From a virus: a stretch of 21,282 bases of DNA. Below the pieces are notes generated by a model. It had not been told where the DNA came from and ran no database searches. It saw nothing but the letters and a program-made list of their open reading frames with translations. This document shows positions 7,846 to 21,282 of this stretch, in pieces (the stretch's first letter is position 1; every line of letters starts with the position of its first letter). The DNA lies in IMG/VR virus record IMGVR_UViG_3300025828_000237, positions 1-21,282 of that record. One strand, 5' to 3'. The position numbers were made by a program, and so were the translations under genes.

Positions 7846-8101
7846 ATAGCCTCCTTATCTCAGCAGATATTGCCTCGTTATCTGATGGTAGATATTTCTC
7901 AAGAGTATAAACAGCTTGTGTTACTGTTGTCGAGGTCTTGAATGCCTGTAAGTTAGCTAGGGCTGTCTCCTTCTTAATCCGAATCAGCTTAGTCTCAAGG
8001 TCACACCTCAAGATGTAAGCATAATCCTTATCAAATCTTGTTAAGAGACAGATCCTCCAGCCTTCTTCAAAGGGATACTTAATTATTTCTGGAGCGTTCA
8101 T
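7814..8101 (-). CDS. Hypothetical protein (95 aa)
   Basis: The ORF begins MNAPEIIKYPFEEGWRICLL. It has an N-terminal beta-like part and a helical C-terminal half, and starts inside the 3' end of the amidoligase gene (23-nt overlap). There is no clear Shine-Dalgarno, so coupled translation is likely. Placement at the end of the amide-ligase cluster makes it a candidate accessory or acceptor protein, but this is inference only. Confidence 0.6.
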   Translation of the reverse strand: MNAPEIIKYPFEEGWRICLLTRFDKDYAYILRCDLETKLIRIKKETALANLQAFKTSTTVTQAVYTLEKYLPSDNEAISAEIRRLYDNDQVFVMP

Positions 8102-9158
8102 ATTCTAACCAGCATTGACGTACTCGGAATTTAAAGTCTTCCCATTCATTACGAGTTAGTGGATCATTAAGATCACGGCTCCATGTATACAGACTATGAT
8201 TCATAGGAGTCCGATCAATAACATAATTCATATAAACACGAGTACGGGGTCTTAGAGATGGGCCGCCTATAGGGATGGGACTATCTAAATCAAATTTATA
8301 GAAGCCTTCCCTGCCTCGGTGGCTCTCACGATCTGCTGACCATCTTTGCCGACGCGGCTGCATTACTGGTTCATGGGCTGGTGCTTGAACCCTATATACT
8401 GTCTCCGTTACTTCTTCACGGAGAGTAGAGGTAACATTAAACAACTCATGGTGTTCAGGTAAAGCCTCTCTAAGAAACTCATCCAAACCAAACTCAGAAT
8501 AGCGCATAAGAATATCTGGTGCCGTATCAAAGGTACAAGCATATTCTCTAAGCCGAAGAAGCATAGAGGCCCATGATTCCATAGTATCTTTAGGGATAGG
8601 GAACCTCATTGATCGGAACTCAAGAGAACCATACTGATTCAGTGCTGCCATATTAAGAGCAGCATACTTGGCTCGGTCACGCTGAATCATTTGAATCCTT
8701 CCACCCACTACTTCACTCAATGTAAAGAACTGATCCTCTGCTTCAAGCATAGACAGACAGAACAGATTACCTTTACGGTGCTCACCACACCAATCAATAA
8801 GGATGGGTTCAAGGATAGAGTAGACACAAATAAAATTTACAAGCTGCTGCAATGTCAACCGCTGGCAGTTAATATGAACATGGGTGCTACAGTTATCACT
8901 GTCTACAATATCATCAAAGTCAAGAGCATTATCATAGATTCGATTGATATACTCAGAGAGCTTACGAGGCTTACAGGGCTGTCGAAGGATGAACTCAGTG
9001 GCATAACCTCTAAGCGACCCATCACTTGTATAAGTCCAGCCAGATGGAGTGTTCTCTCGTGCTCTCTCTAGGGATGACTCACTATCAAACTCTACTTCAA
9101 TCTCAATACCTACGTCACCAGCCTTTTCTCGTTGCTCAAGCTGATCAACAATGTTCAT
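8079..9158 (-). CDS. Amidoligase (glutamine-synthetase-fold, putative amidoligase family)
   Basis: This 359-aa protein has the pattern of the 'putative amidoligase' family, COOH-NH2 ligases with a glutamine synthetase-like fold that form amide bonds with ATP. VGIEIEVEF (16-24) gives the metal-binding G-x-E-x-E. DGSLRGYATEF (46-56) gives D-GS...E. STHVHIN (91-97) is the conserved histidine strand. YGSLEFRSM is the later conserved strand. The C-terminal ~120 residues are less conserved and rich in Arg. SD GGAGG lies 7 nt from ATG 9158. It overlaps the 205-aa unknown by 4 nt. With the second ligase, amidotransferase, cyclotransferase and ATP-grasp genes it forms the amide-bond operon. Its substrates are unknown. 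Confidence 0.85.
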   Translation of the reverse strand: MNIVDQLEQREKAGDVGIEIEVEFDSESSLERARENTPSGWTYTSDGSLRGYATEFILRQPCKPRKLSEYINRIYDNALDFDDIVDSDNCSTHVHINCQRLTLQQLVNFICVYSILEPILIDWCGEHRKGNLFCLSMLEAEDQFFTLSEVVGGRIQMIQRDRAKYAALNMAALNQYGSLEFRSMRFPIPKDTMESWASMLLRLREYACTFDTAPDILMRYSEFGLDEFLREALPEHHELFNVTSTLREEVTETVYRVQAPAHEPVMQPRRQRWSADRESHRGREGFYKFDLDSPIPIGGPSLRPRTRVYMNYVIDRTPMNHSLYTWSRDLNDPLTRNEWEDFKFRVRQCWLEYERSRNN

Positions 9159-9772
9159 AGTCTTGCCTCCAGAAGTTCTCGGTAATAGTTAAATTCATTA
9201 TCTAATTCAGGTTCTCCATTGTCTGTTACTTTACCAACAGCCCTACAGTTAGGGCCAATCAAAAGGAACTGATCATCTTCGTCTGCTGCAAAGATAGTAA
9301 ACTCCCTACAGAATGCTTGAGAAGGGAGATGATCAACAGAATCAAGACGCTCCAAGCACTCAGAGAAACTAGGATATGTCCCATTCATCATGTCATTAAA
9401 GTTGGACATGCCATCAATGGATTCCATAAGATGGTCTACCTTCTGACGACTAATAGTAATCATACCGTGATCCCAAAAGCACCGGATCATTTGGAGATTA
9501 CTATTAGATAGTCCCTGCTTATAGAAGCGGCTACCTTTCCTTACAACATATGTAGGGATCTCAAAGCCATTCATGAAGCCTAGTCTTGGAGGGCTTGAAT
9601 CCAGCTCATCAAAATTAAAGGTTCCTCGACGTTGGCTGTGCATAAATTTACCTGATACCACATTAGACTCTGTGATTTCAGAGATAAGAAAGGGCCTGCC
9701 GTTCCTACTTACAAATGTACCTGAGTATCGAGAGTTCTTATCTCGATTGTTCATGTGACTAAAGTGAGGCAT
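9155..9772 (-). CDS. Unknown protein lodged between two amidoligase genes (205 aa)
   Basis: The ORF begins MPHFSHMNNRDKNSRYSG. I set the start at ATG 9772, with GGAG 6 nt upstream; the longer frame would begin with TTG. The fold looks mixed alpha/beta with an acidic C-terminal half. No catalytic motif is recognisable. It overlaps its neighbours on both sides (14 and 4 nt) inside the ligase cluster, so it is likely an obligate part of the pathway, perhaps a carrier or substrate, but that is inference. Confidence 0.65.
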   Translation of the reverse strand: MPHFSHMNNRDKNSRYSGTFVSRNGRPFLISEITESNVVSGKFMHSQRRGTFNFDELDSSPPRLGFMNGFEIPTYVVRKGSRFYKQGLSNSNLQMIRCFWDHGMITISRQKVDHLMESIDGMSNFNDMMNGTYPSFSECLERLDSVDHLPSQAFCREFTIFAADEDDQFLLIGPNCRAVGKVTDNGEPELDNEFNYYRELLEARL

Positions 9773-10607
9773 AGTGTACTCCAACTCTTGTATACCATTT
9801 TTGATCCCTTATAATTTCCTGTGCACCACTTCTATTAGCCCTATTAATAACTGTTGCTATATAAGGGTCGTCTCTCAATCCATATTCTCGGTTCTGAAAG
9901 TTTTCTATAACTCTCTGAGTATTCTCAAATACCCAACGCATATAACGCTCATCTTTCAACCAAAAATTAGAGAGCACTCGATACTCCAAGCCATAAGGCT
10001 TAGGTCTAAAGGAACCAGCCTGACCATAAAGAGTTCGGCGCTTTTTACCTGAGGCTTGGGGCTCTACAAGAATTGAAGGGAGACCTAAAGCAATGTCAAG
10101 CTCTTTAGTAATTGCTCGACACTCAGCGAAGTGAAGGGGGTCGAAAGGTTCAACATAATCTTTCTCTGGACGCCAGCCAATATGAATATGACCTGAAGCA
10201 CAACGGAAATTAAGATCCTCCGGTTCGTCTGGAGTCTTTTCTTCCCCTGTATAAGCACAGTAATCAGGATCACAACCTAGTTCTTTAGCTTCTGGAGGTT
10301 GCGTTTCCAAATAAGCCTTACTAAAATGTGTTACAATTCTAGGGCTGATATGAAACTCAGAGGGTACTAGTTTACGCAGCTCCTCTTGAACCTTGTTAAT
10401 ATTAAATACAAATTCATCCGAGTTCTTAGCTGGATTGATATTAAATTCAAGAGCCATACCGTCTACTTGAACAGCACCACAATCTACATTGAATGGTTCT
10501 GCTTTAGTACCCGGAATAACTCCATGAGCTGAGACTGCTTTAAACCTAGGCGATGGGCCATTAGTCATAAACAGTTCAGGGTCTGCACCAATAGTAATAT
10601 TTTTCAT
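9759..10607 (-). CDS. Phage COOH-NH2 ligase (type 2 amidoligase)
   Basis: This 282-aa protein has the pattern of the phage COOH.NH2 ligase family, distinct from the amidoligase two genes away. It contains GADPELFM (7-14), VDGMALEFNI (48-57), SGHIHIGW (138-145) and YGLEYRVLSNFW (205-216). These supply the Glu, His and Arg positions of the glutamine-synthetase fold that activate a carboxylate with ATP and couple it to an amine. ATG 10607 overlaps the amidotransferase stop (ATGA). Two different amidoligases in one operon suggest two successive couplings, or two different substrates. Confidence 0.85.
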   Translation of the reverse strand: MKNITIGADPELFMTNGPSPRFKAVSAHGVIPGTKAEPFNVDCGAVQVDGMALEFNINPAKNSDEFVFNINKVQEELRKLVPSEFHISPRIVTHFSKAYLETQPPEAKELGCDPDYCAYTGEEKTPDEPEDLNFRCASGHIHIGWRPEKDYVEPFDPLHFAECRAITKELDIALGLPSILVEPQASGKKRRTLYGQAGSFRPKPYGLEYRVLSNFWLKDERYMRWVFENTQRVIENFQNREYGLRDDPYIATVINRANRSGAQEIIRDQKWYTRVGVHYASL

Positions 10608-11914
10608 GCTCCACCTTGATAGCTTTTAATTTCACACTCATCACTACAAACAAAACTTGTAGCATCCATCCAGATTATATCTTTTGCTTGATCCTCTTTG
10701 GGGATCTGGTTGCATACAAAGCATCCAGAAGTAACCATCTCCCTCCATTCATCAGCCGGGATAAGCATACTCCCATAAGGGATAAGCTGTGAATTATTTT
10801 GAAGGAGAGGAAGTTGCTTTTTTTCTTGAGGGATCTCAGAATCTTTCACACTATACGGGGTAACAACCAGCGTAGCCTTTCGATCAGCCGCTATACTATT
10901 AGTCCAATCAAGATATTGAACCCGACCTGTAAAGTAAAGATCATTAGCAATACCTGCTACCAACTTAGGAACTACTTCTTTATCACATTGAACATGAGCC
11001 CTGCAAGAGATACGAACAGGAACAGGAGGATTAGTACCAATAGCATGGCCCGTAAATGTATCACCGACTCGGCCAGTTACTTTAAAGTAACAAGAATCTC
11101 CCGGCCCGAAGCCCTGATACTTACGACCACTACGATATTGGTTCCCGTTAGATCCATGGTATCCCCCACTGTTGTAGGTAGTAGTCTTCGGTTTCGGTGC
11201 TACATAGGGGCTCAACTTTTTTACTTTAGCCTTATCAATCTTCTCATTAATCTTACTAGGAATAGTAAACTTATAAAGATGATGAGGCTTGACAGAATTA
11301 AACTTATTCTTGTGAACCTTCATATCAGCACGGCTCAGTGCAAGATTAAGAATCTGCCATTCAGATGACCAATAGAGCTGCTTAAAGTCATCACTATAAG
11401 CATAGTAAAGAGGACGCTCATCGTTACGAATAAAGTTCAAGGTCTCATCACTGGCATCCCACCACACTAAAGCAGCAGCACCATGAAGACGATTACTATA
11501 TACTTCCTCGATACCATGAAGGGCCATGTTATAAATAAGAGCCTCACTATCTACATCAAAGTGAGAACCCTCATCAAGAAGTGATACACCCCTTAGCGTC
11601 CCGTTATGAACAGCAGTGATACTCTCATACTGAAAAGGATGAGCGTTCTCATCACTGACATGACCTTTAGTGGCTGCTCGATTATGCCCAATCAAAACCT
11701 TGTGACTGTCCTTAAGAATCTTATCAAATCTACGGGTCGCCATGAATTCATAAGCAGGCAGTGCCTTCTTATACCATGAGGTTTTGTTCTGCTTGTTAAC
11801 AGATATAATACCTGTTGAGTCCTCGCCCCTTAGCACATCAAAGAACAATAGACTCTTAAATACTTTCTCGTGTTTTACTGAGATATCCCCAGCAACACCT
11901 ACAATCCCACACAT
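10604..11914 (-). CDS. Class II glutamine amidotransferase (Ntn hydrolase) with extended C-terminus
   Basis: The protein starts MCGIVGVAGD, so removing Met exposes Cys2, the nucleophile of class II amidotransferases that hydrolyse glutamine to release ammonia. Supporting motifs are RGEDSTG (29-35), LIGHNRAATKG (74-84), HPF (92-94) and HNGTLRG (103-109). The amidotransferase domain ends near residue 210. The remaining ~220 residues have no synthetase domain I recognise. They include a Gly/Tyr-rich linker (GGYHGSNGNQYRSGRK) and a C-terminal CFVC ... CSDEC zinc-like site. This is not asparagine synthetase or GlmS. Ammonia could feed an amidation step by the neighbouring ligases. SD AAGGAG precedes the ATG. 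Confidence 0.85.
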   Translation of the reverse strand: MCGIVGVAGDISVKHEKVFKSLLFFDVLRGEDSTGIISVNKQNKTSWYKKALPAYEFMATRRFDKILKDSHKVLIGHNRAATKGHVSDENAHPFQYESITAVHNGTLRGVSLLDEGSHFDVDSEALIYNMALHGIEEVYSNRLHGAAALVWWDASDETLNFIRNDERPLYYAYSDDFKQLYWSSEWQILNLALSRADMKVHKNKFNSVKPHHLYKFTIPSKINEKIDKAKVKKLSPYVAPKPKTTTYNSGGYHGSNGNQYRSGRKYQGFGPGDSCYFKVTGRVGDTFTGHAIGTNPPVPVRISCRAHVQCDKEVVPKLVAGIANDLYFTGRVQYLDWTNSIAADRKATLVVTPYSVKDSEIPQEKKQLPLLQNNSQLIPYGSMLIPADEWREMVTSGCFVCNQIPKEDQAKDIIWMDATSFVCSDECEIKSYQGGA

Positions 11915-11923
11915 ATAAACTCC

Positions 11924-12751
11924 TTACTTGTAAGTCTCGTGCATCAGTTTAAACATCTCATCCCTATGATCGGGAGCATATTTAAGCTGACGCCCTAAAT
12001 AACTATAACCTATAAGCTCACCGCGAGGGCTGGCCCCTATTCCCTTAATAAACTTAGCAATCTTAGTACCCCCTGATCCATCAAAAGCAGCGTGAACCCC
12101 TTGTTTATTGCGCTCATTAAAGGATGAAGTAGCAAACTTAGGATCAAACCCATGCTCAATAAAGCTCTTAATCTTTGCAGGGCTAGCGTCACAAGTAAAT
12201 ACATCATGATCTCCATAAGCCTTCATAGGACAATGAGACTTCTTGAGGTATTGCATTACTTGAAGGGCTACAATAGGATGGAGTCCCTCATTACGAGCCC
12301 TAATGTATGTCTCTAAGGCATAAGGGCCCTCCCAAGGCTGACGAGATACGATTAGTGCCATGATAGCATAGTTACCGGGGGCATCAGGATCAACAATAAT
12401 GTATTCATCTTCTGGATCATACTCTTTTAGCATGACCTCGCTAAAGAACGGCATCACCTCAGCATAATACTGCTGAAGATCGTCCTCATTAACCTTATAT
12501 TTTTGTCGTGCTTGTATCTTAATAGGAGCTACGACAGCAAAATAATTATCGGGATCAGGGTAAGCTGCTGCTGGCCCATGACAGCTAGCTTTCTGAATTA
12601 TATTATATACTGTCGTACTACCATAATTGTCACGAAACTTATCCCGCGCTCTATTAACCTTGACATGCCAAGCATTAGCTTGATGGACATCCACATTATC
12701 AATCATAAGATCAATAGCTTTATCAATTAACTTTTGGTCAGCCTCGTTCAT
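11924..12751 (-). CDS. Unknown amidoligase-operon protein (275 aa)
   Basis: Start ATG 12751 (MNEADQKLIDKA) is supported by AGGAG 6 nt upstream and a 14-nt overlap with the cyclotransferase gene; the longer frame to 12847 lies inside that gene. The N-terminal half is helical and acidic. Cysteines and histidines are scattered (SCHGP, SHCPMKAYGDHD, FTCDAS) and a Gly-rich FDGSGGTKIAKF lies near the C-terminus. No family is recognised. It sits between the gamma-glutamylcyclotransferase-like and amidotransferase genes, so it probably works in the same pathway. Confidence 0.7.
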   Translation of the reverse strand: MNEADQKLIDKAIDLMIDNVDVHQANAWHVKVNRARDKFRDNYGSTTVYNIIQKASCHGPAAAYPDPDNYFAVVAPIKIQARQKYKVNEDDLQQYYAEVMPFFSEVMLKEYDPEDEYIIVDPDAPGNYAIMALIVSRQPWEGPYALETYIRARNEGLHPIVALQVMQYLKKSHCPMKAYGDHDVFTCDASPAKIKSFIEHGFDPKFATSSFNERNKQGVHAAFDGSGGTKIAKFIKGIGASPRGELIGYSYLGRQLKYAPDHRDEMFKLMHETYK

Positions 12752-13094
12752 GCCAATCTCCTGAAGTAATCTGAGGGCCATCTCCGCTATCAAGAAAGTA
12801 AACCCAGCAATCACCATGACCTTGAATAGATACAAGGCGACGTTCATAAAATCTAGGATGTCCCTCGATGGAATCTAAGAGTCTTAGAGTTCCGGCGTCA
12901 ATGTCGTCATAGACTTCACAAACAACTTGGTTCTCAACAGGTTCATCCACTTCCTTAATGAAAGGGAAGGCACCATAATCAAAGAGGGCGATGTTACTAG
13001 GCAGCCTTGCCATGCCCTTAAAGGTTGCAGAGCTAAGGGCACCAGCCCTAGAATCTCGTTGCCTAAGTGTTCCATATACTGCTACTTGTGTCAT
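12738..13094 (-). CDS. Gamma-glutamylcyclotransferase-like (GGCT/AIG2 family) protein
   Basis: This 118-aa protein has the family signature VYGTLR (6-11), which forms the substrate-binding loop, and LLDSIEGHPRFYERR, which carries the catalytic Glu (E77). Length and order match stand-alone GGCT-like enzymes, which cyclise or cleave gamma-glutamyl-amines and release 5-oxoproline. In this operon it could trim or reverse gamma-glutamyl amide bonds made by the ligases, or recycle a gamma-glutamyl intermediate. Translation is probably coupled: ATG 13094 overlaps the preceding stop (ATGA), with GGAG just upstream. Confidence 0.85.
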   Translation of the reverse strand: MTQVAVYGTLRQRDSRAGALSSATFKGMARLPSNIALFDYGAFPFIKEVDEPVENQVVCEVYDDIDAGTLRLLDSIEGHPRFYERRLVSIQGHGDCWVYFLDSGDGPQITSGDWHERG

Positions 13095-13288
13095 ACTCCA
13101 ACGCTCCGTTTAAGATTAAATGTTTCCTGAGACTCAAGCCGCATCTTATTTCTTGCTAACCTTGAGCCCAGCCCATCACACAAAGACATAAGCGCATCCT
13201 TTTCAGGCCCTTCAGAGATTTGTAGGATTTGACCTCGGATAAGCTGAGTATGTCTTAGTGCTTTAGAGATATTGTGGTAGTCGTTCAT
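13091..13288 (-). CDS. Small helical protein (65 aa)
   Basis: The start at 13288 (MNDYHNISKALRHTQ) is fixed by a near-ideal AAGGAGG 6 nt upstream; the longer frame to 13429 runs antisense into the HNH gene and is not supported. The sequence is helical and basic toward its end. It follows the HNH insertion and overlaps the cyclotransferase gene by 4 nt. No function assigned. Confidence 0.6.
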   Translation of the reverse strand: MNDYHNISKALRHTQLIRGQILQISEGPEKDALMSLCDGLGSRLARNKMRLESQETFNLKRSVGV

Positions 13289-13296
13289 GTTCCTCC

Positions 13297-13326
13297 TTGA
13301 CAAAAAACAAATTTTCAATGTATAAT
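13297..13326 (+). promoter_or_regulatory. Consensus sigma70 promoter for the HNH gene
   Basis: TTGACA (13297-13302), an 18-bp spacer, then TATAAT (13321-13326), a full match to both consensus boxes. Only 7 nt separate the -10 box from the HNH ATG, so the message would start at or within a base or two of the ATG (leaderless). It is one of only two plus-strand promoters in the window, each with the same geometry. Confidence 0.8.
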
Positions 13327-13335
13327 AGTATACAT
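13318..13335. promoter_or_regulatory. Inverted repeat over the -10 box and start codon (possible operator)
   Basis: ATGTATA-ATAG-TATACAT is a perfect 7-4-7 dyad that covers the -10 box, the transcription start region and the first bases of the HNH start codon. A protein bound here would block RNA polymerase directly. No bound regulator is known; the HNH protein itself, with its N-terminal Cys-rich motif, is one candidate. Confidence 0.4.
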
Positions 13336-13816
13336 GGATACTAAAAATTGTAATTCTTGCCGACAGCAAAAACCACTCGATGAGTTCTATACTGGACGGG
13401 CTCAATGTAAATCTTGTGTAGTCACTCAAGTAACAACCAGACAGAAAAATAACCCTCAGTATTTAAAATACCAAGCCCAGTATAGAGAAAAAAATAAAGA
13501 CCGAATGAAAGCTGCTCATAAAAAATATGTTGAGAAGAATCGAGGTCTTATTAATTTCCTTAACAGCCGTCGTAAAAAACGTATTAAAGAACGTACTCCT
13601 AGTTGGCTTTCCTCATCAGATATAGCACAAATTAAAGAAATATATAATCAAGCGGCTGAACTATCACAACAAACTGATAAACTTTATCATGTTGATCATA
13701 TAATCCCATTAAAAGGTGAGCTTGTTAGCGGTCTACATGTACCGTCTAATTTACAAATATTAGAAGCCTCTGAAAATATCCGTAAATCTAATCAACTAAA
13801 ATCGCACGATCTGTAA
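13334..13816 (+). CDS. HNH endonuclease, free-standing, likely mobile
   Basis: This 160-aa protein has an N-terminal C-x2-C ... C-x2-C zinc motif (Cys 6, 9, 25, 28). A Lys/Arg-rich helical linker follows, then a C-terminal HNH core: YHVDHIIPL (118-126), GLHVPSNLQ (133-141, N139) and SENIRKSN (N148). This matches phage HNH nucleases that nick or cut DNA. It lies on the strand opposite to the operon around it, is clearly more AT-rich, has its own consensus promoter, and its 3' end overlaps the ATP-grasp gene tail by 29 nt. No Shine-Dalgarno precedes the ATG. These features fit a homing-type intruder. Confidence 0.9.
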   Translation: MDTKNCNSCRQQKPLDEFYTGRAQCKSCVVTQVTTRQKNNPQYLKYQAQYREKNKDRMKAAHKKYVEKNRGLINFLNSRRKKRIKERTPSWLSSSDIAQIKEIYNQAAELSQQTDKLYHVDHIIPLKGELVSGLHVPSNLQILEASENIRKSNQLKSHDL

Positions 13817-14642
13817 TACATTCGTGAATAAATTTACGATACCCTCCCCTACGTTCAATGACAGGAATCCTATCTAAAGGCTTGTCGTCAACCCAATCAA
13901 GCCACTTAACCATACAATCTTGACGATAGTCTTGTGGCAAAGCGGGGCTAGTGTTGGCCTCTAAGACATAAGGATTACCAGCAGCATCTTGAATAACATC
14001 AATAGCTGCAAAGTCTAAAGAGGTCTTAAGAAAAGCCTCACGAGCATAACGAACAGCCTTAAGGGGCCAGTTATCCCAACTGACATTCTCAAAGCGACCA
14101 CCAGCACTAACATTCCAGATAAGGGATTCGATATCCTCAACAAACTTTTCGGCAACACAAAGAATACGACCCTGAGCCACAAAGACTCTGAATTCTCGAG
14201 TCTTAGGGATATACTGAGAGATATAATACCTGTTATGGCTTTGAGCCCTTATAGCCCTTATAGCCCTCGTCAGTTGCTCATAATCTTCGGCATAATAAAA
14301 ATTAGAACCAGCTTCATGGTTAGCCGGACGAACAACATAAGGGTAAAGGTTAGCTTCGTGAGCTGTGCCACGGTTCCAAAAGGTAGGAGGGCAAAGATTG
14401 TCCTCATTAATTAATACTCTGAATTTACTCTTATCAGAGGCATCAATAATACTTTCAGCTTTATTAATTACAGGGACTCCAAAAGGATTCTGAGAGGTTG
14501 TACAGCCCCACCTAAAAACCTTAGAGATATTACGGGGCTTACGTTTATCATTACGCCAAGCCACAATGTTCTCTGACTTCTCAGCTAAAGTATTTACTGT
14601 GGCTCTGGCATAACCTTTACGACGTAGAAGTGCTATTGTCAT
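13788..14642 (-). CDS. ATP-grasp ligase
   Basis: This 284-aa protein has the C-terminal ATP-grasp signature FAAIDVIQDAAGNPYVLEANTSPAL, with the Asp, Glu and Asn that bind Mg-ATP. A basic central strand (YPYVVRPANHEAGSNFYYAE) fits the nucleotide-binding domain, and REFRVFVAQGRIL fits the family's phosphate-contacting strand. ATP-grasp enzymes activate a carboxylate as acyl phosphate and join it to an amine or thiol, as in RimK and other peptide ligases. The start is set at ATG 14642 because GGAG is 7 nt upstream. It is the first gene of the amide-bond operon, just after a terminator, and is cut off from the rest by the HNH gene. Confidence 0.85.
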   Translation of the reverse strand: MTIALLRRKGYARATVNTLAEKSENIVAWRNDKRKPRNISKVFRWGCTTSQNPFGVPVINKAESIIDASDKSKFRVLINEDNLCPPTFWNRGTAHEANLYPYVVRPANHEAGSNFYYAEDYEQLTRAIRAIRAQSHNRYYISQYIPKTREFRVFVAQGRILCVAEKFVEDIESLIWNVSAGGRFENVSWDNWPLKAVRYAREAFLKTSLDFAAIDVIQDAAGNPYVLEANTSPALPQDYRQDCMVKWLDWVDDKPLDRIPVIERRGGYRKFIHECITDRAILVD

Positions 14643-14655
14643 AAATTTACTCCAT

Positions 14656-14698
14656 AAAAAAACCCCCAAGCCCCGAATCACTAGGGGGCAAGGGGGTT
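14656..14698 (-). terminator. Intrinsic terminator before the ATP-grasp operon
   Basis: On the minus strand AACCCCC-TT-GCCCC pairs with GGGGC-TT-GGGGGTT around a 10-nt loop, and seven Ts follow. The hairpin ends only 13 nt before the ATP-grasp start codon, so it closes the transcript of the 157-aa gene upstream. The amidoligase operon would then need read-through, antitermination or a weak promoter of its own. A small hairpin (GCATC-TAGC-GATGC) precedes it. Confidence 0.85.
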
Positions 14699-14717
14699 AA
14701 AGGGCATCGCTAGATGC

Positions 14718-15191
14718 TTAACTTACCAGAGCAGCCTCAAGCTCGTCATCAAGTTCAACTTCAGGCTCCTCAACCTCAATGCCAAGCAGCTCCATTTTCT
14801 CCTCAAGGCTAAGGGTACTTAGTACATCCTTAAGGGTATTTACTACATCCTCTTTAGAGGGCTCAGGAGCCGTCTTAACAGCCTTTTGAGGGACTGCTTT
14901 AGAGCTTTCAGGGGCTGAATAACTAGCGTCGTAGAGGTCTCTATAACGCTTAGGAAGCACCTTAGCTTCAAGCAGCTTTTGGATTTCACCATGAGTCAGT
15001 TCATCCTTAGCCACCTCGTTGTGGTACTTAAGGATAAGAGCCCTGATAACCGTAGCAAGACGGTAATCGTTAGTCCGCTCCACGGCTTTAAAGCCCTTAG
15101 AAGCGAAGCGAAATGATACTCGCTTGATTTGATTAAAGGTTGCTTTACGATCAGCAGGAATTGAAGAAGGATCAAAAGTTTTAGTAGTCAT
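14718..15191 (-). CDS. Hypothetical acidic-tailed protein (157 aa)
   Basis: I set the start at ATG 15191 (MTTKTFDPSSIPADRKATFN); GGAGG lies 10 nt upstream, while the longer frame (15221) has no ribosome site. The N-terminal two thirds are basic and helical (KATFNQIKRVSFRFASKGFK). A Pro/Ser/Lys linker follows, then a very acidic tail (EVEEPEVELDDELEAALVS). This design is common in phage DNA-binding or replication accessory proteins. The Shine-Dalgarno lies in the loop of an AGTGC/GCACT hairpin, so initiation may be structure-dependent. Confidence 0.7.
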   Translation of the reverse strand: MTTKTFDPSSIPADRKATFNQIKRVSFRFASKGFKAVERTNDYRLATVIRALILKYHNEVAKDELTHGEIQKLLEAKVLPKRYRDLYDASYSAPESSKAVPQKAVKTAPEPSKEDVVNTLKDVLSTLSLEEKMELLGIEVEEPEVELDDELEAALVS

Positions 15192-15267
15192 AATTTTAGT
15201 GCCTCCGAAGCACTTAGTCATAATTAACGTGTGACGAGATCATGTGGCTCCCGTCGAGCCAGTTTCC

Positions 15268-15296
15268 AGAATGACCGATCCAGCCGGAGCTGTCAA
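15268..15296 (-). promoter_or_regulatory. Phage promoter repeat, copy 1 (before the 157-aa gene)
   Basis: Minus strand: TTGACA (15291-15296), 17 bp, CATTCT (15268-15273). The flanks are conserved with the copy at 15413-15441: GTGTTAT upstream, GCTCC just after the -35, and AAACTGGCTCG just after the -10. The -10 is a poor sigma70 match (shared A, T, T), yet the CATnnT form recurs at the same spacing in other copies. Confidence 0.6.
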
Positions 15297-15311
15297 GGCC
15301 CAATAACACAC

Positions 15312-15349
15312 ATGTATATAAATATATATTATACATTTATATAGATATG
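15312..15349. other. AT-rich tract between two promoter repeats
   Basis: About 38 bp of almost pure A/T (repeats of TATATA, with a TTATATA) lie between promoter copies 1 and 2. No supported ORF crosses it. T7's primary origin combines tandem promoters with an AT-rich stretch, so this layout is compatible with a DNA unwinding element, but there is no direct evidence for origin function. The rest of the 15192-15471 gap is filled by the two promoter repeats. Confidence 0.35.
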
Positions 15350-15412
15350 CTCTCGGCTGACCCCTAAACATGCGTGTTAAACATGAGAAGGAGCCCCGCC
15401 GAGCCAGTTTCA

Positions 15413-15441
15413 AGGATGGCATGGCAGCTCGGAGCTGTCAA
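15413..15441 (-). promoter_or_regulatory. Phage promoter repeat, copy 2
   Basis: Minus strand: TTGACA (15436-15441), 17 bp, CATCCT (15413-15418). Flanks shared with copy 1 include CGTGTTAT upstream and GAAACTGGCTCG downstream. It lies just below the 24-aa membrane peptide ORF and fires toward the 157-aa gene. Confidence 0.6.
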
Positions 15442-15471
15442 GCCCTATAACACGCGGGGTATTAAGATTCC

Positions 15472-15546
15472 CTAAAGTATAAAATAAAGCACACAAACCG
15501 CTAAACAGGTTAAAATAAGCGTGTCGAGTAAATCTTCATTATCCAT
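15472..15546 (-). CDS. Probable single-span membrane micropeptide (24 aa)
   Basis: A 24-codon ORF has an acidic N-terminus (MDNEDLLDT) followed by an unbroken hydrophobic stretch LILTCLAVCVLYFIL running to the stop. That is about 15 residues, enough for one short membrane pass. GGAGG lies 6 nt before the ATG. The ORF overlaps the stop of the 127-aa gene by 8 nt, as expected for coupled translation. No family is known to me; candidate roles are inner-membrane effects on the host. Confidence 0.55.
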   Translation of the reverse strand: MDNEDLLDTLILTCLAVCVLYFIL

Positions 15547-16693: not shown

Positions 16694-16702
16694 TTTAATC
16701 TC

Positions 16703-16768
16703 CGTTTAGGCTTTAAAGAGCCTACTTGCCTTTAAGCAGGCTCTCAAAAGCCCCTAAAGGGGCTAGAG
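16703..16768 (-). repeat. Cluster of short hairpins in an intergenic gap
   Basis: The 75-bp gap between two small genes holds four nested or adjacent perfect hairpins. They are AGGCT/AGCCT, GAGCCT/AGGCTC, AGCCCC-TTTA-GGGGCT followed by TTTT, and TAAGCC/GGCTTA, the last overlapping the upstream gene's end. The AGCCCC hairpin plus TTTT could act as a weak intrinsic terminator on the minus strand. The architecture matches the dense hairpins to the right (17.4-19.5 kb). Confidence 0.55.
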
Positions 16769-17005
16769 CTAAGCCCTAAAAGGCTTAGGATGCTCCAAGA
16801 CTTCAGAGTGCTGATCTAAATCAGCAACGGTGTTCTCATAAGTCTCTGAATCCGTTAAGAGCACATAGGATTCGTAGAATCTGGCAACAATAAAACTTCT
16901 ACCATTATACTTGACCTTAGTGCCAGTTTTGAGCCCCTCTAAAGGGGCTCTAGTACCAACTGGGTACAGTTTAGCTTGAAGATTGATTTCGCTCTTAAGA
17001 GCCAT
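16769..17005 (-). CDS. Hypothetical small protein (78 aa)
   Basis: The start at ATG 17005 (MALKSEINLQAKLYPVGTR) has AAGGAG 8 nt upstream and overlaps the stop of the 26-aa ORF as TAATG. The beta-rich middle (LKTGTKVKYNGRSFIVARFY) suggests an SH3-like barrel, but this is not certain. It contains the internal hairpin AGCCCC-TCTAAA-GGGGCT. No family assigned. Confidence 0.65.
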   Translation of the reverse strand: MALKSEINLQAKLYPVGTRAPLEGLKTGTKVKYNGRSFIVARFYESYVLLTDSETYENTVADLDQHSEVLEHPKPFRA

Positions 17006-17085
17006 TATAATTCTCCTTCGATGTAAAGGATAAAGATGAGTATTAAAATACTCGCAACCAATGCTGTAAAGCCCCAAGGTATCAT
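17005..17085 (-). CDS. Probable membrane micropeptide (26 aa)
   Basis: This 26-codon ORF starts MIPWGFTALVAS and continues with ILILIFILYI before a short polar end (EGEL). The hydrophobic run of about 19 residues is enough for one membrane pass. Its ATG directly abuts the stop of the upstream 74-aa gene and its TAA overlaps the next ATG (TAATG), so it is a tightly packed, translationally coupled operon member. AAGGGGG lies 5 nt upstream. The family is unknown. Confidence 0.6.
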   Translation of the reverse strand: MIPWGFTALVASILILIFILYIEGEL

Positions 17086-17310
17086 TTAAACCCCCTTAGC
17101 GGCTTTATTCGCCATCTGACGCTTTATATACCTAAGCTGATCTGCTACCTCAGCAGTAACATTAAAGCCCTTGACTGTTACTAAGTAACATTCAGGGTTT
17201 TGCATCATCAACTTAGCATAAAGCTCAGTCCGTGAATCCGTACTAAAGTAGTAAAGATTCTCTGGAGCCCCTTCGGGGCTTTCGTTAAATGTCATTACTT
17301 CGTAAGACAT
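17086..17310 (-). CDS. Hypothetical small protein (74 aa)
   Basis: The ORF begins MSYEVMTFNESPEGAPENLY and ends with a basic helix (LRYIKRQMANKAAKGV). AAGGAG lies 6 nt upstream. Palindromes GTTACTAAGTAAC and GAGCCCCTTCGGGGCTTTC fall inside its codons. No motif recognised. Confidence 0.65.
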   Translation of the reverse strand: MSYEVMTFNESPEGAPENLYYFSTDSRTELYAKLMMQNPECYLVTVKGFNVTAEVADQLRYIKRQMANKAAKGV

Positions 17311-17320
17311 AATGGTCTCC

Positions 17321-17446
17321 TTAGCCCCTTAGGGGCTGTTGGTTAAGCTCAGACTGGCAGTCTAAGCAGATTACAGTTTTAACAGTGTGGGGAGTCTCCT
17401 TAGACTCTTTAACTGTCGTAAAGCATCGTTCACAAACTTCGGTCAT
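17321..17446 (-). CDS. Zinc-ribbon micropeptide (41 aa)
   Basis: A 41-codon ORF begins MTEVCERCFTTVKESKETPH and contains a second ICLDCQ, giving C-x2-C (5 and 8) and C-x2-C (27 and 30), a compact zinc ribbon. GGAGG lies 7 nt upstream of ATG 17446. Its last codons and stop form the palindrome AGCCCCTAAGGGGCT, just before the next gene's Shine-Dalgarno. Such phage zinc peptides can bind host RNA polymerase or nucleases, but no target is evident. Confidence 0.6.
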   Translation of the reverse strand: MTEVCERCFTTVKESKETPHTVKTVICLDCQSELNQQPLRG

Positions 17447-17464
17447 CGCCGTTCCTCCGGTTGG

Positions 17465-17508
17465 GGCTTATCAAAGCTAGCTAGATTACTATCTAGCTTT
17501 GATAAGCC
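17465..17508. repeat. 16-bp perfect inverted repeat, 12-nt loop
   Basis: GGCTTATCAAAGCTAG and its exact complement flank 12 nt. It is the longest perfect hairpin arm in the window and sits in the gap between the 60-aa gene and the zinc micropeptide. No T-run follows on either strand, so it is not a standard terminator. It could be an RNase III-type processing site, a stabilising structure or an operator. Confidence 0.7.
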
Positions 17509-17541
17509 CTTTAGAACCCCTAAGGGCTCCAAGGGCTGCTT

Positions 17542-17724
17542 TCAATCCCTAAAGGGATCAGTGAACTCACCATCTTCGTCGATAAAGCAATCTTCCTCGG
17601 CAGGATCGAAGATCTCCACTAAACCCCAAAAGGATTCAGCATGTTCACTATCGAGTTTTCTATAAAACTCGCCTTCAAACTTAAAGCTATTCCCTTCGGG
17701 AATTGAATCGAATCGGTAATACAT
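17542..17724 (-). CDS. Hypothetical acidic small protein (60 aa)
   Basis: The ORF begins MYYRFDSIPEGNSFKFEGEF and is strongly acidic in its second half (DPAEEDCFIDEDGEFTDPFRD). AAGGAG lies 7 nt upstream. High acidity and small size recall DNA-mimic or inhibitor proteins of phages, but this is only a composition-based idea. Its stop lies in the palindrome TCCCTAAAGGGA. Confidence 0.6.
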   Translation of the reverse strand: MYYRFDSIPEGNSFKFEGEFYRKLDSEHAESFWGLVEIFDPAEEDCFIDEDGEFTDPFRD

Positions 17725-17734
17725 AAATGGCTCC

Positions 17735-17968
17735 TTAGAGTTCGTAGGTCGTTTCTAAATGGACATGACCCTCTGGGTCAATGACATAAACCGATAAGAT
17801 CTCAGTGCCTCTCGGCAACATAGCATCTTCAGCGGATTCATACCACTGAACATGAATGTTCATGCCAACCCTCTTAATGTTAGTAACTTCAGGGTGAGAC
17901 CCTGAACACTTAAGAGATTCAGGGTTAAACAAATCATCCATAACCTCTTTAACATGACGGTAAATCAT
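17735..17968 (-). CDS. Hypothetical small protein (77 aa)
   Basis: The ORF begins MIYRHVKEVMDDLFNPESLK, with a beta-rich C-terminal half (GTEILSVYVIDPEGHVHLET). AAGGAGG lies 5 nt upstream, itself preceded by the palindrome GGGCCCTTTAGGGCCC. No motif recognised. Confidence 0.65.
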   Translation of the reverse strand: MIYRHVKEVMDDLFNPESLKCSGSHPEVTNIKRVGMNIHVQWYESAEDAMLPRGTEILSVYVIDPEGHVHLETTYEL

Positions 17969-17985
17969 AAATCCTCCTTAGGGCC

Positions 17986-18174
17986 CTAAAGGGCCCCCTC
18001 ATCAAGCTTGTGAACTACTTTAGTAGTAATGTCATCACCGTTGCCATCAAAGATGGCGAAGTCATGACCCCTAAGTTCTAAACTAAGAACTTTATCCAAC
18101 ATCGGATACCAACCTTCTACGAAGGTCTCCGTTTCAGTCCCTAAGGGACTACAGCTAAGTACTTCGTACTTCAT
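17986..18174 (-). CDS. Hypothetical small protein (62 aa)
   Basis: The ORF begins MKYEVLSCSPLGTETETFVE. Several perfect hairpins fall in its codons: AAGTAC-TTC-GTACTT (18157-18171), AGTCCCTAAGGGACT (18136-18150) and ACCTTC-TAC-GAAGGT (18111-18125). The ribosome site AAAGGAG lies in one arm of another hairpin. The family is unknown. Confidence 0.65.
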   Translation of the reverse strand: MKYEVLSCSPLGTETETFVEGWYPMLDKVLSLELRGHDFAIFDGNGDDITTKVVHKLDEGAL

Positions 18175-18179
18175 AACTA

Positions 18180-18194
18180 AACTCCTTTGGAGTT
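18180..18194 (-). promoter_or_regulatory. Hairpin sequestering the ribosome site of the 62-aa gene
   Basis: On the minus strand AACTCC-AAA-GGAGTT is a perfect stem-loop whose 3' arm is the Shine-Dalgarno, 7 nt from the ATG. The mRNA would have to open this stem before initiation. The 123-aa gene just upstream has the same arrangement (ATTTTCC-AAA-GGAAAAT, 18606-18622). Confidence 0.55.
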
Positions 18195-18226
18195 GGTGAA
18201 AGGGGCTCTAAAGAGCCCCCGAGTGG

Positions 18227-18622
18227 CTGTTACTTCGTAACAGTGACTTTGGTTGCAGCGTCAAGACTGTAAGTCTTGCCATTGGCTGACTCGTAAACGG
18301 CTTTGCCGTTCTTGAAAGCCTTCAGGACGTTAAGTCTTTTAGACTTACCGATACGGAACTTCGTTCCGATGTGGCAATCCAGAAGCTCAACCCCTTTAGG
18401 GTTGATGTTGACCTTTCGATCAACCTTCGGTTGAACCGAAGCCCCTTCGGGGCTTTCAGAGCCCTTAAGGGCTGCAACCAGCAAATCTTCAGGGCTCTTA
18501 GGAGCCCTGCGGTCAATCTCAAGCTCTACAAGCTTGAGGACTTGGTTGAACTCAGCTTCGCTGAGGGACTTGAGAACTGCTACAAAAGCTTCGCTTTTCA
18601 TAATGATTTTCCTTTGGAAAAT
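18227..18622. repeat. Array of distinct perfect mini-hairpins through a coding gene
   Basis: Fourteen perfect inverted repeats lie end to end, with centres mostly 20-35 nt apart. Each has arms of 6-8 bp or is a continuous palindrome, and the loop is 3-5 nt when present. Examples: CTGTTAC-TTC-GTAACAG (18227), CAAGACT-GTA-AGTCTTG (18262), AACGGC-TTT-GCCGTT (18296), CGGAAC-TTC-GTTCCG (18354), TCAACC-TTC-GGTTGA (18420), AGCCCTTAAGGGCT (18460), CTCAAGCT/AGCTTGAG (18518), CTCAGC-TTC-GCTGAG (18551) and AAAAGC-TTC-GCTTTT (18584). No two have the same arms, so this is repetition of structure, not of sequence. Six of the loops are TTC closed by C-G, which on the minus strand is C-GAA-G. Confidence 0.8.
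18230..18601 (-). CDS. Hypothetical early protein (123 aa) encoded through a hairpin array
   Basis: The ORF begins MKSEAFVAVLKSLSEAEFNQ. The N-terminal ~45 residues are helical; residues 70-123 are basic and beta-like (GTKFRIGKSKRLNVLKAFKN, KTYSLDAATKVTVTK), which would suit nucleic acid binding. It is the first gene of the minus-strand small-gene block, ~70 nt below a promoter repeat (18679-18707). The codons contain thirteen different perfect hairpins, one covering the stop codon and another, just outside, covering the ribosome site. No family recognised. The hairpins fall in different codon phases, so they reflect nucleic-acid structure and not a peptide repeat. Confidence 0.65.
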   Translation of the reverse strand: MKSEAFVAVLKSLSEAEFNQVLKLVELEIDRRAPKSPEDLLVAALKGSESPEGASVQPKVDRKVNINPKGVELLDCHIGTKFRIGKSKRLNVLKAFKNGKAVYESANGKTYSLDAATKVTVTK

Positions 18623-18678
18623 GAGTTTGAAATACCCCTTCGGGGTAACTCAGCGACCCAGTGCCGCCGAGCCATTTC

Positions 18679-18707
18679 AAGCTACGGGGTTTCGAGATTG
18701 GGGTCAA
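18679..18707 (-). promoter_or_regulatory. Phage promoter repeat, copy 4 (before the 123-aa gene)
   Basis: Minus strand: TTGACC (18702-18707), 17 bp, TAGCTT (18679-18684), followed by GAAATGGCTCGGCGG, which matches the downstream flank of copies 1 and 2 (GAAACTGGCTCGGCGG). Upstream is GGGGGC. The shared downstream flank is the best evidence that this is a true family member despite the weaker boxes. Confidence 0.55.
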
Positions 18708-19263
18708 GCCCCCTTCGCGGGAGAGTCTTTCGCATTATGCGCAGGAACTCCGTACGGAAGGGTGGTCTGGTCGGCCTAGTGATTCTTAGGGCCCTTTAGG
18801 GCCCTTTTGAGCCCCTTTAGGGGCTCTTTAGGGCTCTTTAGAGCCCTTAGTTAGCTCTGAAAGAGCTAGGGGGATGATTGAGGTTTAAGCTCTATAGAGC
18901 TTAGGGAGGCTTTAAAGCCCTAAAGGGCTTCAATGAAGCTCTACGAGCTTTAGGGGCTTTTTAAAGCTCATAGAGCTTTAGAGAGCTTGGGAGTCTTTAG
19001 AGGCTTTTAAGCCTCTAGGTGGTTGATTTCCTTGTGAGATCTGTAAAGATCTCAGGGGTCTTAGGGGCTAATCTTAGCCCCTAAGCGTCTCTGGAGTGAC
19101 CGTCAAGAGCCCCTTAGGGCTCTTCAGGGCTCTTTCAAGCCCTTCAGGGCTTGGGAGATCTCCGTAGGAGATAAGGCTGGAGTCTGATCTTTAAGCCCCT
19201 TAGGGGCTTAGGGGGTCGGGGCAGGCTGCCATGGGGGGTCACTCCTTTAATATACTCCTGCTT

Positions 19264-19292
19264 ACGATGGATAAAGGAGTTGAGGGTGTCAA
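19264..19292 (-). promoter_or_regulatory. Possible phage promoter, CATnnT type
   Basis: Minus strand: TTGACA (19287-19292), 17 bp, CATCGT (19264-19269). The -35 and spacing match the promoter repeats and the -10 has the same CAT..T form, but the flanks are not conserved. It would produce a leader of more than 600 nt to the first gene, passing through the palindrome-rich stretch. Confidence 0.4.
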
Positions 19293-19353
19293 GTGGCGGC
19301 TTAGAAGCCCTAAGAGCCTCTAAGCATCCCTAAGAGCTTTAAAGACCCCCAAT

Positions 19354-19386
19354 AAAAAACCCCCTAGCCCTAACAGGACTAGGAGG
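19354..19386 (-). terminator. Intrinsic terminator in the palindrome-rich stretch
   Basis: Minus strand: CCTCCTAG pairs with CTAGGGGG, extended inward by TCCT/AGGG with a GTT loop, and six Ts follow directly. It is about 165 nt downstream of the consensus minus-strand promoter at 19559-19587 and would stop most transcripts from it. Confidence 0.75.
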
Positions 19387-19552
19387 TCTTATGAGATCTT
19401 AGGGCCCCTTAGGGCTCTAAGGGGTGCTATAGCACCCTTTATACATCTTAGGGAATACTTTAATAATTTATTATGTTACCCCTTTAGAGCCCTAAGGGCC
19501 CTTTAGAGCCCTAAGATCTAGGGTAACCCTAATTCACCCCCGAGGCTCGTTA
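19354..19552 (-). ncRNA. Possible phage small RNA (~200 nt)
   Basis: A consensus sigma70 promoter (19559-19587) and an intrinsic terminator (19354-19386) bracket about 200 nt with no ORF longer than nine codons. The interval holds several strong palindromes (GGGTGCTATAGCACCC; repeated AGAGCCCTAAGG units). It could be a stand-alone structured RNA, or the attenuated leader of the whole minus-strand early transcript. No known RNA family is recognised. Confidence 0.45.
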
Positions 19553-19558
19553 CTCGCC

Positions 19559-19587
19559 ATTATACAGGTAGATTAAAGATCTGTCAA
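19559..19587 (-). promoter_or_regulatory. Consensus sigma70 promoter, leftward
   Basis: Minus strand: TTGACA (19582-19587), 17 bp, TATAAT (19559-19564), full consensus with optimal spacing. It is the outermost minus-strand promoter and is back to back with the rightward promoter at 19618-19646. This divergent pair marks the switch between the leftward small-gene/replication arm and the rightward packaging arm. Confidence 0.85.
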
Positions 19588-19617
19588 GACTTTTTTTAAA
19601 TATTTTATAATCTCCTA

Positions 19618-19646
19618 TTGACAAGTGGCGGCTCAAGGGCTATAAT
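19618..19646 (+). promoter_or_regulatory. Consensus sigma70 promoter, rightward (terminase operon)
   Basis: TTGACA (19618-19623), 17 bp, TATAAT (19641-19646), full consensus. The first ATG is 7 nt after the -10 box, the same distance as in the HNH promoter, so the message would be leaderless or nearly so. The sequence TATAATAG after the spacer is identical in both. Confidence 0.85.
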
Positions 19647-19653
19647 AGACACT

Positions 19654-19866
19654 ATGCTATATGTGTTTCCTAATGGCCCCATAGAGCCCTCAGCAGCCCT
19701 TCAGAAGGCCCTAGAGGATGTTTCTATCCTAGATGAGGTGTTGGTATTGGGTATGACTAAAGACGCTGAGATCGTCTTATATAGCTCCTCAGATGATATA
19801 CGAGATATATTACTCCTTATCGAATTAGTGAAAGCTAGATGGATCTATGACCTCGAAGAAGAATGA
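19654..19866 (+). CDS. Hypothetical protein (70 aa), first gene of the terminase operon
   Basis: The start is set at ATG 19654 (MLYVFPNGPIEPSAALQK). The longer frame would begin with TTG inside the promoter -35 box and is not credible. The protein has alternating beta and helix predictions (DEVLVLGMTKDAEIVLYSS, then DIRDILLLIELVKARWI) and an acidic end. It overlaps the small terminase gene by 20 nt. There is no Shine-Dalgarno; translation probably begins at the very 5' end of the mRNA. The family is unknown. Confidence 0.6.
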   Translation: MLYVFPNGPIEPSAALQKALEDVSILDEVLVLGMTKDAEIVLYSSSDDIRDILLLIELVKARWIYDLEEE

Positions 19867-20290
19867 AACTTATTTACCTAGCCCCCAAAGGTATGGGAAG
19901 CGTGAGCTAACAGAGATGCAACTGAAGCTCCTAGATAGCCTTGAAGAAGCTAATTATAATCCAATAGAAGCAGCAAAGCTAGCAGGGTACAAACACCCCG
20001 TAAGTGCTGTACGTGCTGTGCGAGAGGAGCTGTCAGCCCTTATTGATGACATGATTGCTAATAGTGCCCTAGAGGCTGCTAAGACTATTAGGGATATTAT
20101 GGTAAGCCCTGTACCTGTACCTCAAGCCCGTGAAAGGATGGAAGCAGCGAAAACAACACTCGACAGAGCTGGACATGCCAAAAAGGAGCTAGTGGATGTG
20201 AGGCATACAGTTAAAGGAGGGGTCTTTATTATCCCTGAGAAAGAGCCTATTGATATCCCTGCAGAGGATGCGGTGATCATAGATGAGTGA
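19847..20290 (+). CDS. terS: Terminase small subunit
   Basis: This 147-aa protein sits two genes before the large subunit. An N-terminal helix-turn-helix is visible in ANYNPIEAAKLAGYKHPVSA with a preceding recognition-like helix (LTEMQLKLLDSLEEA). This is the arrangement used by small terminase subunits to bind the packaging site. The middle is helical (ALEAAKTIRDIMV, then ARERMEAAKTTLDRAG), suitable for ring assembly, and the C-terminus is acidic and Pro-rich. The family match is by pattern and position. It overlaps the next gene by 8 nt. Confidence 0.75.
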   Translation: MTSKKNETYLPSPQRYGKRELTEMQLKLLDSLEEANYNPIEAAKLAGYKHPVSAVRAVREELSALIDDMIANSALEAAKTIRDIMVSPVPVPQARERMEAAKTTLDRAGHAKKELVDVRHTVKGGVFIIPEKEPIDIPAEDAVIIDE

Positions 20291-20609
20291 TTACCCTGTA
20301 GCCTATAATAAGAATGGTAAGCCCCCGTATGGCTATGAGCCTCTAGAAGATGGGGAGAAGTACTTCCAACCCAATGATAAAGTATTGGACAAGCTAGTAG
20401 AGACAATCAATTATATTAATATGGAAGCCCTAAGCATACGAGAAGGGGCTATCTACCTTACATACCATGCAGACCGGCCTATAACCTATGAGGGCTTGAG
20501 GTTAATAATTAGAGATGAGCGACACCCAATATACGAAAGTACGAGAGGAGAATCCCTTAGAGGAACTGACAGCCTCCAAAGTCCAGAGGCTACTCAAGGA
20601 GTATCCTGA
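20283..20609 (+). CDS. Hypothetical protein (108 aa) overlapping the terminase large subunit start
   Basis: The ORF begins MSDYPVAYNKNGKPPYGYEP. A possible helix-turn-helix (LSIREGAIYLTYHADRPITY) lies in the middle. It begins inside the small terminase end and overlaps the large subunit start by 95 nt in another frame, which is longer than most overlaps here. It may be a packaging accessory protein. Either its C-terminal tail or the first ~30 residues of the large subunit are under dual-frame constraint, or the true large-subunit start is further down. Confidence 0.6.
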   Translation: MSDYPVAYNKNGKPPYGYEPLEDGEKYFQPNDKVLDKLVETINYINMEALSIREGAIYLTYHADRPITYEGLRLIIRDERHPIYESTRGESLRGTDSLQSPEATQGVS

Positions 20610-21282
20610 GCTTTGGGAGATCTATCCAGAGCTTTATAAGACAGATTCCTCCGGTAACTTTATTCTCACTAAAGCGGGTGTACCTGCAAGGAAACAAGGT
20701 AAATTACCCGGAAGCCCCCATAATCTCCATAGTGAGACTAAAAAGAAAAGGGCGGCTAAGCAGGCCCGAGATAGAGTTAGAGAAGAACAACAGCGAGTTA
20801 AGAAGCTAGAAGCAAAAGTTAAAGAGGCCCAGAAGAAAGCTGAAAAGACTAAAGAGGCTTTAAATAAACTTGATGGGCGCTCAAAGAATCAGCTAATAAC
20901 TAAAGAGGAACTAGATAGGCTACCTCAGGCTGTAAGAGATCAGATAGCCAATGAGGAATCTGAGGTAATCTTTAAGCCCAATCCGGGGCCACAGGAACAT
21001 TTCTTAGGAGCAGGAGAAAAAGATGTCTTATTTGGGGGAGCAGCCGGAGGGGGAAAAAGCTATGCGATGCTTGTTGATCCCCTTAGGTTCTGCCATATAG
21101 GGGACGCCCGGGCACTGCTCATTAGAAGGACTATGCCAGAACTCCGTGAGCTTATCGACAAGTCTTTTGAATTATATCCAAAGGCTTTTCCCGGTGCCAA
21201 GTTCAGACAGCAAGACAAAATCTGGACATTTCCCTCAGGGGCTAAGTTAGAGTTCGGGTACTGCGAGAAGGACAGTGACGTC
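20515..21282 (+). CDS. terL: Terminase large subunit, N-terminal part (runs off the window)
   Basis: The frame is open from ATG 20515 (MSDTQYTKVREENPLEELTA) to the right edge, 256 codons. An N-terminal extension of ~145 residues includes a Lys/Glu/Ala-rich coiled coil (EQQRVKKLEAKVKEAQKKAE). The ATPase then begins with KPNPGPQEHF (adenine-binding region) and Walker A LFGGAAGGGKSYAML, followed by ALLIRRTMPELRELI and PGAKFRQQDKIWTFPSGA, all typical of large terminases that power DNA packaging. Walker B and the nuclease domain lie beyond the window. The upstream ribosome site is weak, so coupling to the overlapping ORF is likely. Confidence 0.9.
   Translation, partial: MSDTQYTKVREENPLEELTASKVQRLLKEYPELWEIYPELYKTDSSGNFILTKAGVPARKQGKLPGSPHNLHSETKKKRAAKQARDRVREEQQRVKKLEAKVKEAQKKAEKTKEALNKLDGRSKNQLITKEELDRLPQAVRDQIANEESEVIFKPNPGPQEHFLGAGEKDVLFGGAAGGGKSYAMLVDPLRFCHIGDARALLIRRTMPELRELIDKSFELYPKAFPGAKFRQQDKIWTFPSGAKLEFGYCEKDSDV

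Follow-up and report, generated by a model that had tools for sequence, protein, structure and literature searches.

We examined an IMG/VR-type record of viral DNA, 21,282 bases long (IMGVR_UViG_3300025828_000237; its whole length is referred to below as the window) in which the first part of the leftward early transcription unit is crowded with short, perfect hairpins. This array is present at the same place in tens of related uncultured, mostly marine phages, and the first leftward gene of most of the array-bearing relatives belongs to a single family. The conserved property is self-complementarity with a tight 3-4-nucleotide (nt), mostly C-G-closed loop, and not the sequence itself. We tentatively propose, at somewhat less than even confidence, an early phage module of two parts, in which the zone acts in cis and an early protein recognises hairpin shape. 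With more reserve, we suggest that it might represent a previously unknown phage element: a protein made early that reads hairpin shape and a promoter-proximal array of hairpins, dozens in number and diverse in sequence, that template switching keeps perfect, the two jointly assembling a nucleoprotein structure where the phage programme is entered.

The array covers six small minus-strand genes and an untranslated leader of ~950 nt (18,602-19,551), somewhat longer than the ~760 bp of non-coding DNA given by an earlier, sequence-only reading of the window. Perfect hairpins with arms of 6 or more and loops of 3-4 number 48 at positions 16,700-19,551, against a mean of 1.9 and a maximum of 7 in 300 dinucleotide shuffles, and looser criteria (arms of at least 5, loops of 3-5) yield 62 against 9.5, with a shuffled maximum of 18. 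The rest of the window is near background, with 14 hairpins at positions 1-15,500 where 7.9 are expected and none in 19,552-21,282. The zone thus lies where the sequence-only reading had placed it, with the loops (TTC, TTA, TTT, TTTA/TAAA) and arms (such as AGCCCC/GGGGCT) that it had described, and the hairpins run across genes, gaps, starts and stops as it had claimed. Its further view that the hairpins are independent of coding holds for density, which is alike in genes (15.9/kb) and gaps (17.9/kb), but coding has left an imprint on their form: 3-nt loops account for 18 of the 24 window hairpins inside genes, and the codon register that accommodates hairpins least is somewhat depleted (54 of 213, all relatives pooled). 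Ordinary terminators, base composition or an assembly artefact could be invoked for such a zone, and a few hairpins do carry partial T-runs, but there is no T enrichment or U-run after the hairpins as a set, terminator-like sites number 7 against 4.8 in shuffles, the hairpin count far exceeds that of dinucleotide shuffles, and the same type of array occurs in many independent metagenome contigs; we consider this class of explanation scarcely credible.

The position of the array is tied to transcription. The right edge of the zone coincides with the predicted start of leftward transcription at ~19,551, downstream of a perfect sigma-70 promoter, which supports the earlier suggestion that a regional process or selection acts where the minus arm is transcribed first; promoters and transcription starts are here sequence predictions. 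Relatives share the divergent promoter pair, whose starts are in most cases separated by 80-110 nt. In the zone-bearing relatives, hairpin density to the right of the leftward start is 0.3-1.0/kb, and in successive 250-nt steps to the left of it is 9, 20, 13, 11, 7, 4.6, 3.6 and 1.7/kb, reaching background by ~2 kb. In three relatives of ~50 kb the array is the sole peak, with 12+6, 8+10 and 12+10 hairpins in two adjacent kb. Neither of the outcomes that the sequence-only reading had named as refuting it was found, density being uneven and the zone being present in many relatives.

Relatives were gathered by terminase. The window belongs to the wider HMO-2011 / pelagiphage podovirus group on the basis of TerL and of polymerase and primase-helicase PHROGs; the best TerL matches are the Pelagibacter phages HTVC115P/103P/104P/033P, Roseobacter CRP phages and HMO-2011. 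About one third of 79 non-redundant relatives carry the array, and on the terminase tree it is clustered but must have been gained or lost several times. On this tree the window pairs with L003, separately and at a distance from the others; L003 is its closest terminase match (65% identity) and shows no zone over the 4.4 kb covered. Other relatives share promoter pair and gene order and have no array, and in close relatives that lack it the block itself is not alignable. No peak was found over the stretches profiled of the isolates HTVC115P, HTVC033P, CRP-3 and CRP-13. HMO-2011 has a weaker hairpin cluster near the promoter hub, which was rejected as the same feature since its closing pairs differ and no gene of the family is present; in L002 1-2000 and L084 1-2000 (HMO-2011), an exact hairpin agtccgCTGTcggact is repeated in both orientations within this cluster.

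The gene family associated with the array encodes a protein with an N-domain (..R.AT.KQ...V...FA..., then ..MTHGDVQ.FF....VP..), a Lys/Pro/Ser/Thr-rich linker that sometimes contains an AT-hook-like GRGRPKGSKNK, and in most members a coiled-coil-like C-terminal stretch. A full-length gene is present in 43 of 44 non-redundant array-rich loci (score of at least 9), 11 of 21 intermediate loci and 1 of 43 array-poor loci (score of 5 or less), five of the last having the N-domain alone. On the terminase tree, gene and array are both present in 32 cases and both absent in 39, with the gene only in five and the array only in three. Aligned as a whole, the family proved too diverse for scanning. A search begun from the gene, with one subgroup, found the array in 60 of 60 non-redundant loci, with 10.3 hairpins/kb in the 900 nt upstream of the gene and ~0.8/kb further downstream. 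The window itself encodes a divergent member (hidden Markov model (HMM) E value of 9.6e-13 on the first pass and 4e-21 after iteration; 1e-6 by profile comparison) that sits ~1.5 kb outside the array. The link is therefore not merely one of hairpins within the gene, and the window, with gene and array apart, is among the more telling cases of the association. Neither this gene nor the first leftward gene of the window found close relatives when used as a query. Searches of Pfam, PHROGs, PADLOC and PDB returned weak, scattered and no useful matches for the family, no match was found in phage isolates, and none was found in GTDB genome contigs by the sequence patterns used. A short paralogue consisting of the N-domain only (84-87 aa) occurs further along the same operon in L074 (7637-8047), L121 (4201-4461) and L220 (478-729).

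The hairpins share a style rather than a sequence. Among 294 non-redundant hairpins, loops are of 3 nt (134), 4 nt (120) or 5-8 nt (40), and the pairs closing the 3-4-nt loops are C-G in 145 cases, T-A in 73, A-T in 26 and G-C in 10. C-G closure of 3-nt loops is seen 100 times against 27 expected, and particular loops are enriched, with cGTAg found 9 times (0.4 expected) and cTTAAg 7 times (0.2 expected). The ViennaRNA DNA parameters assign one value to all 3-nt loops, so that computed loop energies are uninformative here. The stems are diverse, with no arm sequence common to the 294 hairpins, and a dispersed palindromic repeat family of the REP, RPE or Volvox kind was accordingly rejected. 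A different hairpin cluster, with G-C instead of C-G closure, lies 3-4 kb left of TerL in L062, L076 and L023.

Hairpins of this outline beside the earliest genes also bring to mind a signal for DNA entry or for a virion polymerase, the array either stalling injection, as has been proposed for phage T5, or providing a virion RNA polymerase with hairpin promoters of the phage N4 kind. The adjacency of hairpin-rich DNA to the earliest genes fits this idea, as do stems of 5-8 bp with 3-nt loops, which resemble N4 promoter hairpins in outline, the comparison being one of general form. Against it stand stems without shared sequence, a hairpin number that runs to dozens, the perfect sigma-70 promoters of the hub and the absence of the array from many relatives of the same layout, and we regard such a signal as very unlikely.

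Comparison of related arrays points to both a mutational process and selection. With one sequence used to define the hairpins and two others to count differences, stems differed at 0.18, 0.14 and 0.14 per site in the alignable groups A, C and B, against 0.29, 0.28 and 0.33 for loops and 0.28, 0.22 and 0.25 for spacers, a contrast possibly inflated by residual relatedness and by alignment errors in spacers. It is weak in group E (stems 0.32, loops 0.36, spacers 0.39), and stems change more slowly also in the non-coding leader of group A alone. Double changes that keep pairing outnumber unpaired ones (778 against 379 in group A, 214 against 33 in group C), and the arms co-change above both the unpaired doubles and a slid control. 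Between relatives with matching stems there are nine exact loop inversions, with 2.2 expected from the loop pool; in two 96%-identical contigs, for example, an 11-bp stem occurs as CTCTAAAGTCT-TCTT-AGACTTTAGAG and as the identical stem around AAGA. Inverted loops between identical stems are a footprint of template switching (PMC8794818), and these inversions thus indicate that some hairpins, at the least, are made or re-perfected by a process acting on DNA, while the slow change of stems suggests that selection also keeps them.

The same footprint would be expected of a neutral mutational hot spot, in which frequent template switching at the early transcript start (where transcription might prime a replication origin, for instance, or an R-loop might persist) builds and re-perfects functionless hairpins, and the gene, lying in one block with them, hitch-hikes. 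The loop inversions and concerted arm changes accord with this account, as do the likeness of hairpins in coding and non-coding DNA, their decay with distance from the start and their gain and loss, and similar reasoning has been applied to coding palindromes of Nematomorpha (PMC6649704) and to RNA stems (PMC8794818). It does not explain why stems change more slowly than loops and spacers, non-coding DNA included, since conversion alone should not slow change; nor does it account for the lack of an array in relatives whose promoter pair and gene order are the same, and it leaves the gene association unexplained. We judge a purely neutral origin unlikely.

Whether the hairpins act in DNA or in RNA was approached through strand asymmetry. 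Selection on the leftward mRNA predicts that plus-strand A-C mismatches, which become G-U pairs in the mRNA, should exceed G-T. Single mismatches in stems are A-C in 95 cases and G-T in 94, the two are nearly equal in other sets as well (45 and 31 in one of them), and no significant wobble asymmetry was found in any form tried. Predicted folds lie far above the stability of shuffles on both strands, and at most loci G-U pairs in them are below shuffle level, again on both strands; an apparent better folding of the opposite strand in all loci was traced to base composition. A strand bias of the loops is real in genes only. Searches for known RNAs gave nothing near the gathering score in Rfam, and no tRNA was found. 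Strand symmetry favours the DNA form, and together these features point to self-complementarity at the DNA level more than to ordinary RNA structure.

An element acting in RNA is nonetheless to be weighed, in which folding of the hairpins in the leftward early mRNA, along its leader and first cistrons, blocks Rho loading or RNase attack, or helps the polymerase past a leader terminator, while template switching merely supplies perfect stems. That the array lies strictly downstream of the leftward start and is absent from the rightward transcript would suit this function, as would the long untranslated leader, with its predicted terminator at ~190 nt, and the folding of leader RNA far above shuffles. 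The lack of strand-specific wobble, the deficit of G-U pairs on both strands and the equally good folding of the opposite strand argue against it, the loops are unlike the usual RNA tetraloops and have a strand bias confined to genes, and no U-runs follow the hairpins. We hold this explanation to be rather unlikely, but not negligible.

Our own proposal, of a cis-acting array paired with an early hairpin-recognising protein, may be set out as follows. New hairpins would arise and be re-perfected through template switching at the DNA level, and would be retained since the partner protein recognises hairpin shape. This protein, with its N-domain, basic Pro/Lys-rich linker and mostly coiled-coil-like C-terminus, may bind many hairpins at once and, acting on a promoter-proximal early region, could create a nucleoprotein platform soon after infection. 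The form that is bound could be extruded DNA, single-stranded DNA or leader RNA.

Several observations weigh against this proposal. The association is partly built in, as array-bearing phages supplied the sequences of the first HMM and the gene-first scan drew on one subgroup. In most cases gene and array travel together as a single block, leaving few independent events: five of eight independent pairs differ in the same direction, none in the opposite one and three show no difference (sign test, p 0.06). L056/L108 has a strong array and no member of the family in a contig of ~50 kb, L027 and L026 (score 8) lack the gene, and L045, L099, L101, L123 and L024 carry it at scores of 5-7. The transcript-linked position would fit an RNA function too. 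In L242 15011-15617 (the L056 contig), which is the one clear exception to the gene association, the first early gene has a Lys/Pro/Ser/Thr-rich linker and a different N-terminal part.

Features of the window are collected in the table below. The minus arm comprises the small genes, an amidoligase-type cluster, primase-helicase and DNA polymerase, and the plus arm carries the terminase genes. The predicted terminator in the leader, which a simple terminator scan missed, may be a leader attenuator. A leader motif that includes ATATACTC is seen in the leaders of L074, L063, L048 and L030, of which L048 is array-poor, and the conserved element in the leader can be aligned with L107 and L125 though most of the flanking DNA cannot. 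Further along the minus strand (6705-14681), a cluster encoding a nucleotidyltransferase, amidoligase, COOH.NH2 ligase, glutamine amidotransferase and RimK-like ligase has the look of a pathway that modifies peptides or small molecules.

Table. Predicted and observed features in and around the hairpin array of the window.
Feature	Position	Strand	Remarks
Hairpin array	16707..19531		~48 perfect inverted repeats; arms 6-11, loops 3-4; peak density at 18.0-19.2 kb
Leftward early promoter, TTGACA-17-TATAAT	19559..19587	-	12/12 match to sigma-70 consensus; predicted start ~19,551
Divergent rightward promoter of the terminase arm, TTGACA-17-TATAAT	19618..19646	+	Perfect sigma-70 match; no hairpins downstream
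Predicted intrinsic terminator in leftward leader	19354..19389	-	Long stem with two G-U pairs, then UUUUUU; from folding; ~190 nt past start
Leader motif GGCAGG-n-GCCA-(G/C tract)-(T)ATATACTC	19220..19259		Resembles motif of relatives
Conserved non-coding element, possibly structured	18640..18765		77-81% identity to array-poor L107 and L125; partly in L058/L148
First leftward early gene	18230..18601	-	123 aa; no family match; hairpins cover 40%
Five more small early genes carrying hairpins	16769-17077, 17086-17310, 17542-17724, 17735-17968, 17986-18174 (within 16769..18174)	-	
Divergent member of the partner family	14721..15191	-	157 aa; N-domain ..ATFNQIKRVSFRFA..LTHGEIQKLLEAKVLP.., P/S/K linker, helical acidic tail

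No description of such a phage element was found in the literature searched, which lay mostly outside subscription journals. The near-constant company of the array and one early gene, previously unnamed, suggests a two-part viral element that has so far gone unrecognised. Cases in which a whole stretch of DNA visibly conserves shape and not sequence, in its genes as in its gaps and across many related viruses, are rare. Such an array offers natural material for studying how hairpins are made and kept by template switching and selection, and it points to an uncharacterised family of early genes, from uncultured and mostly marine phages, as the likely and directly testable partner.

Several known systems share individual features with the array. 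The injection stop signal of phage T5 is hairpin-rich non-coding DNA beside the pre-early genes, for which stalling of injection has been proposed; compared with it in general features, the phage array differs in crossing genes and in being accompanied by a protein family. In type III toxin-antitoxin systems, ToxIN among them, an array of structured, near-identical RNA repeats precedes a small protein gene; the phage arrangement has a similar order, but its units share shape and not sequence and its partner protein has no PADLOC match of note. Mitochondrial genes of Nematomorpha contain perfect inverted repeats of up to 284 bp in coding DNA, and these palindromes, like the phage hairpins, behave as a perfect-or-absent binary character with gain and loss, for which template switching or conversion was proposed (PMC6649704). 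The Nematomorpha repeats are long and scattered through mitochondrial genes (PMC6649704), whereas the phage hairpins are short and many, are confined to one promoter-proximal zone, occur also in non-coding DNA and are tied to a gene. The phage array shares its perfect stems, the concerted change of its arms and its inverted loops with RNA hairpins made by template switching, but the latter are single stems of rRNA and microRNA genes (PMC8794818). Closest in appearance are the organelle palindromes of Volvox carteri, which have 3-5-nt loops, often TTTA/TAAA, and whose plastid motif TCCCCTTTAGGGA resembles several hairpins of the phage array (PMC2670323); the Volvox repeats form families of similar sequence across intergenic DNA, whereas the phage stems differ one by one and are gathered in a single zone.

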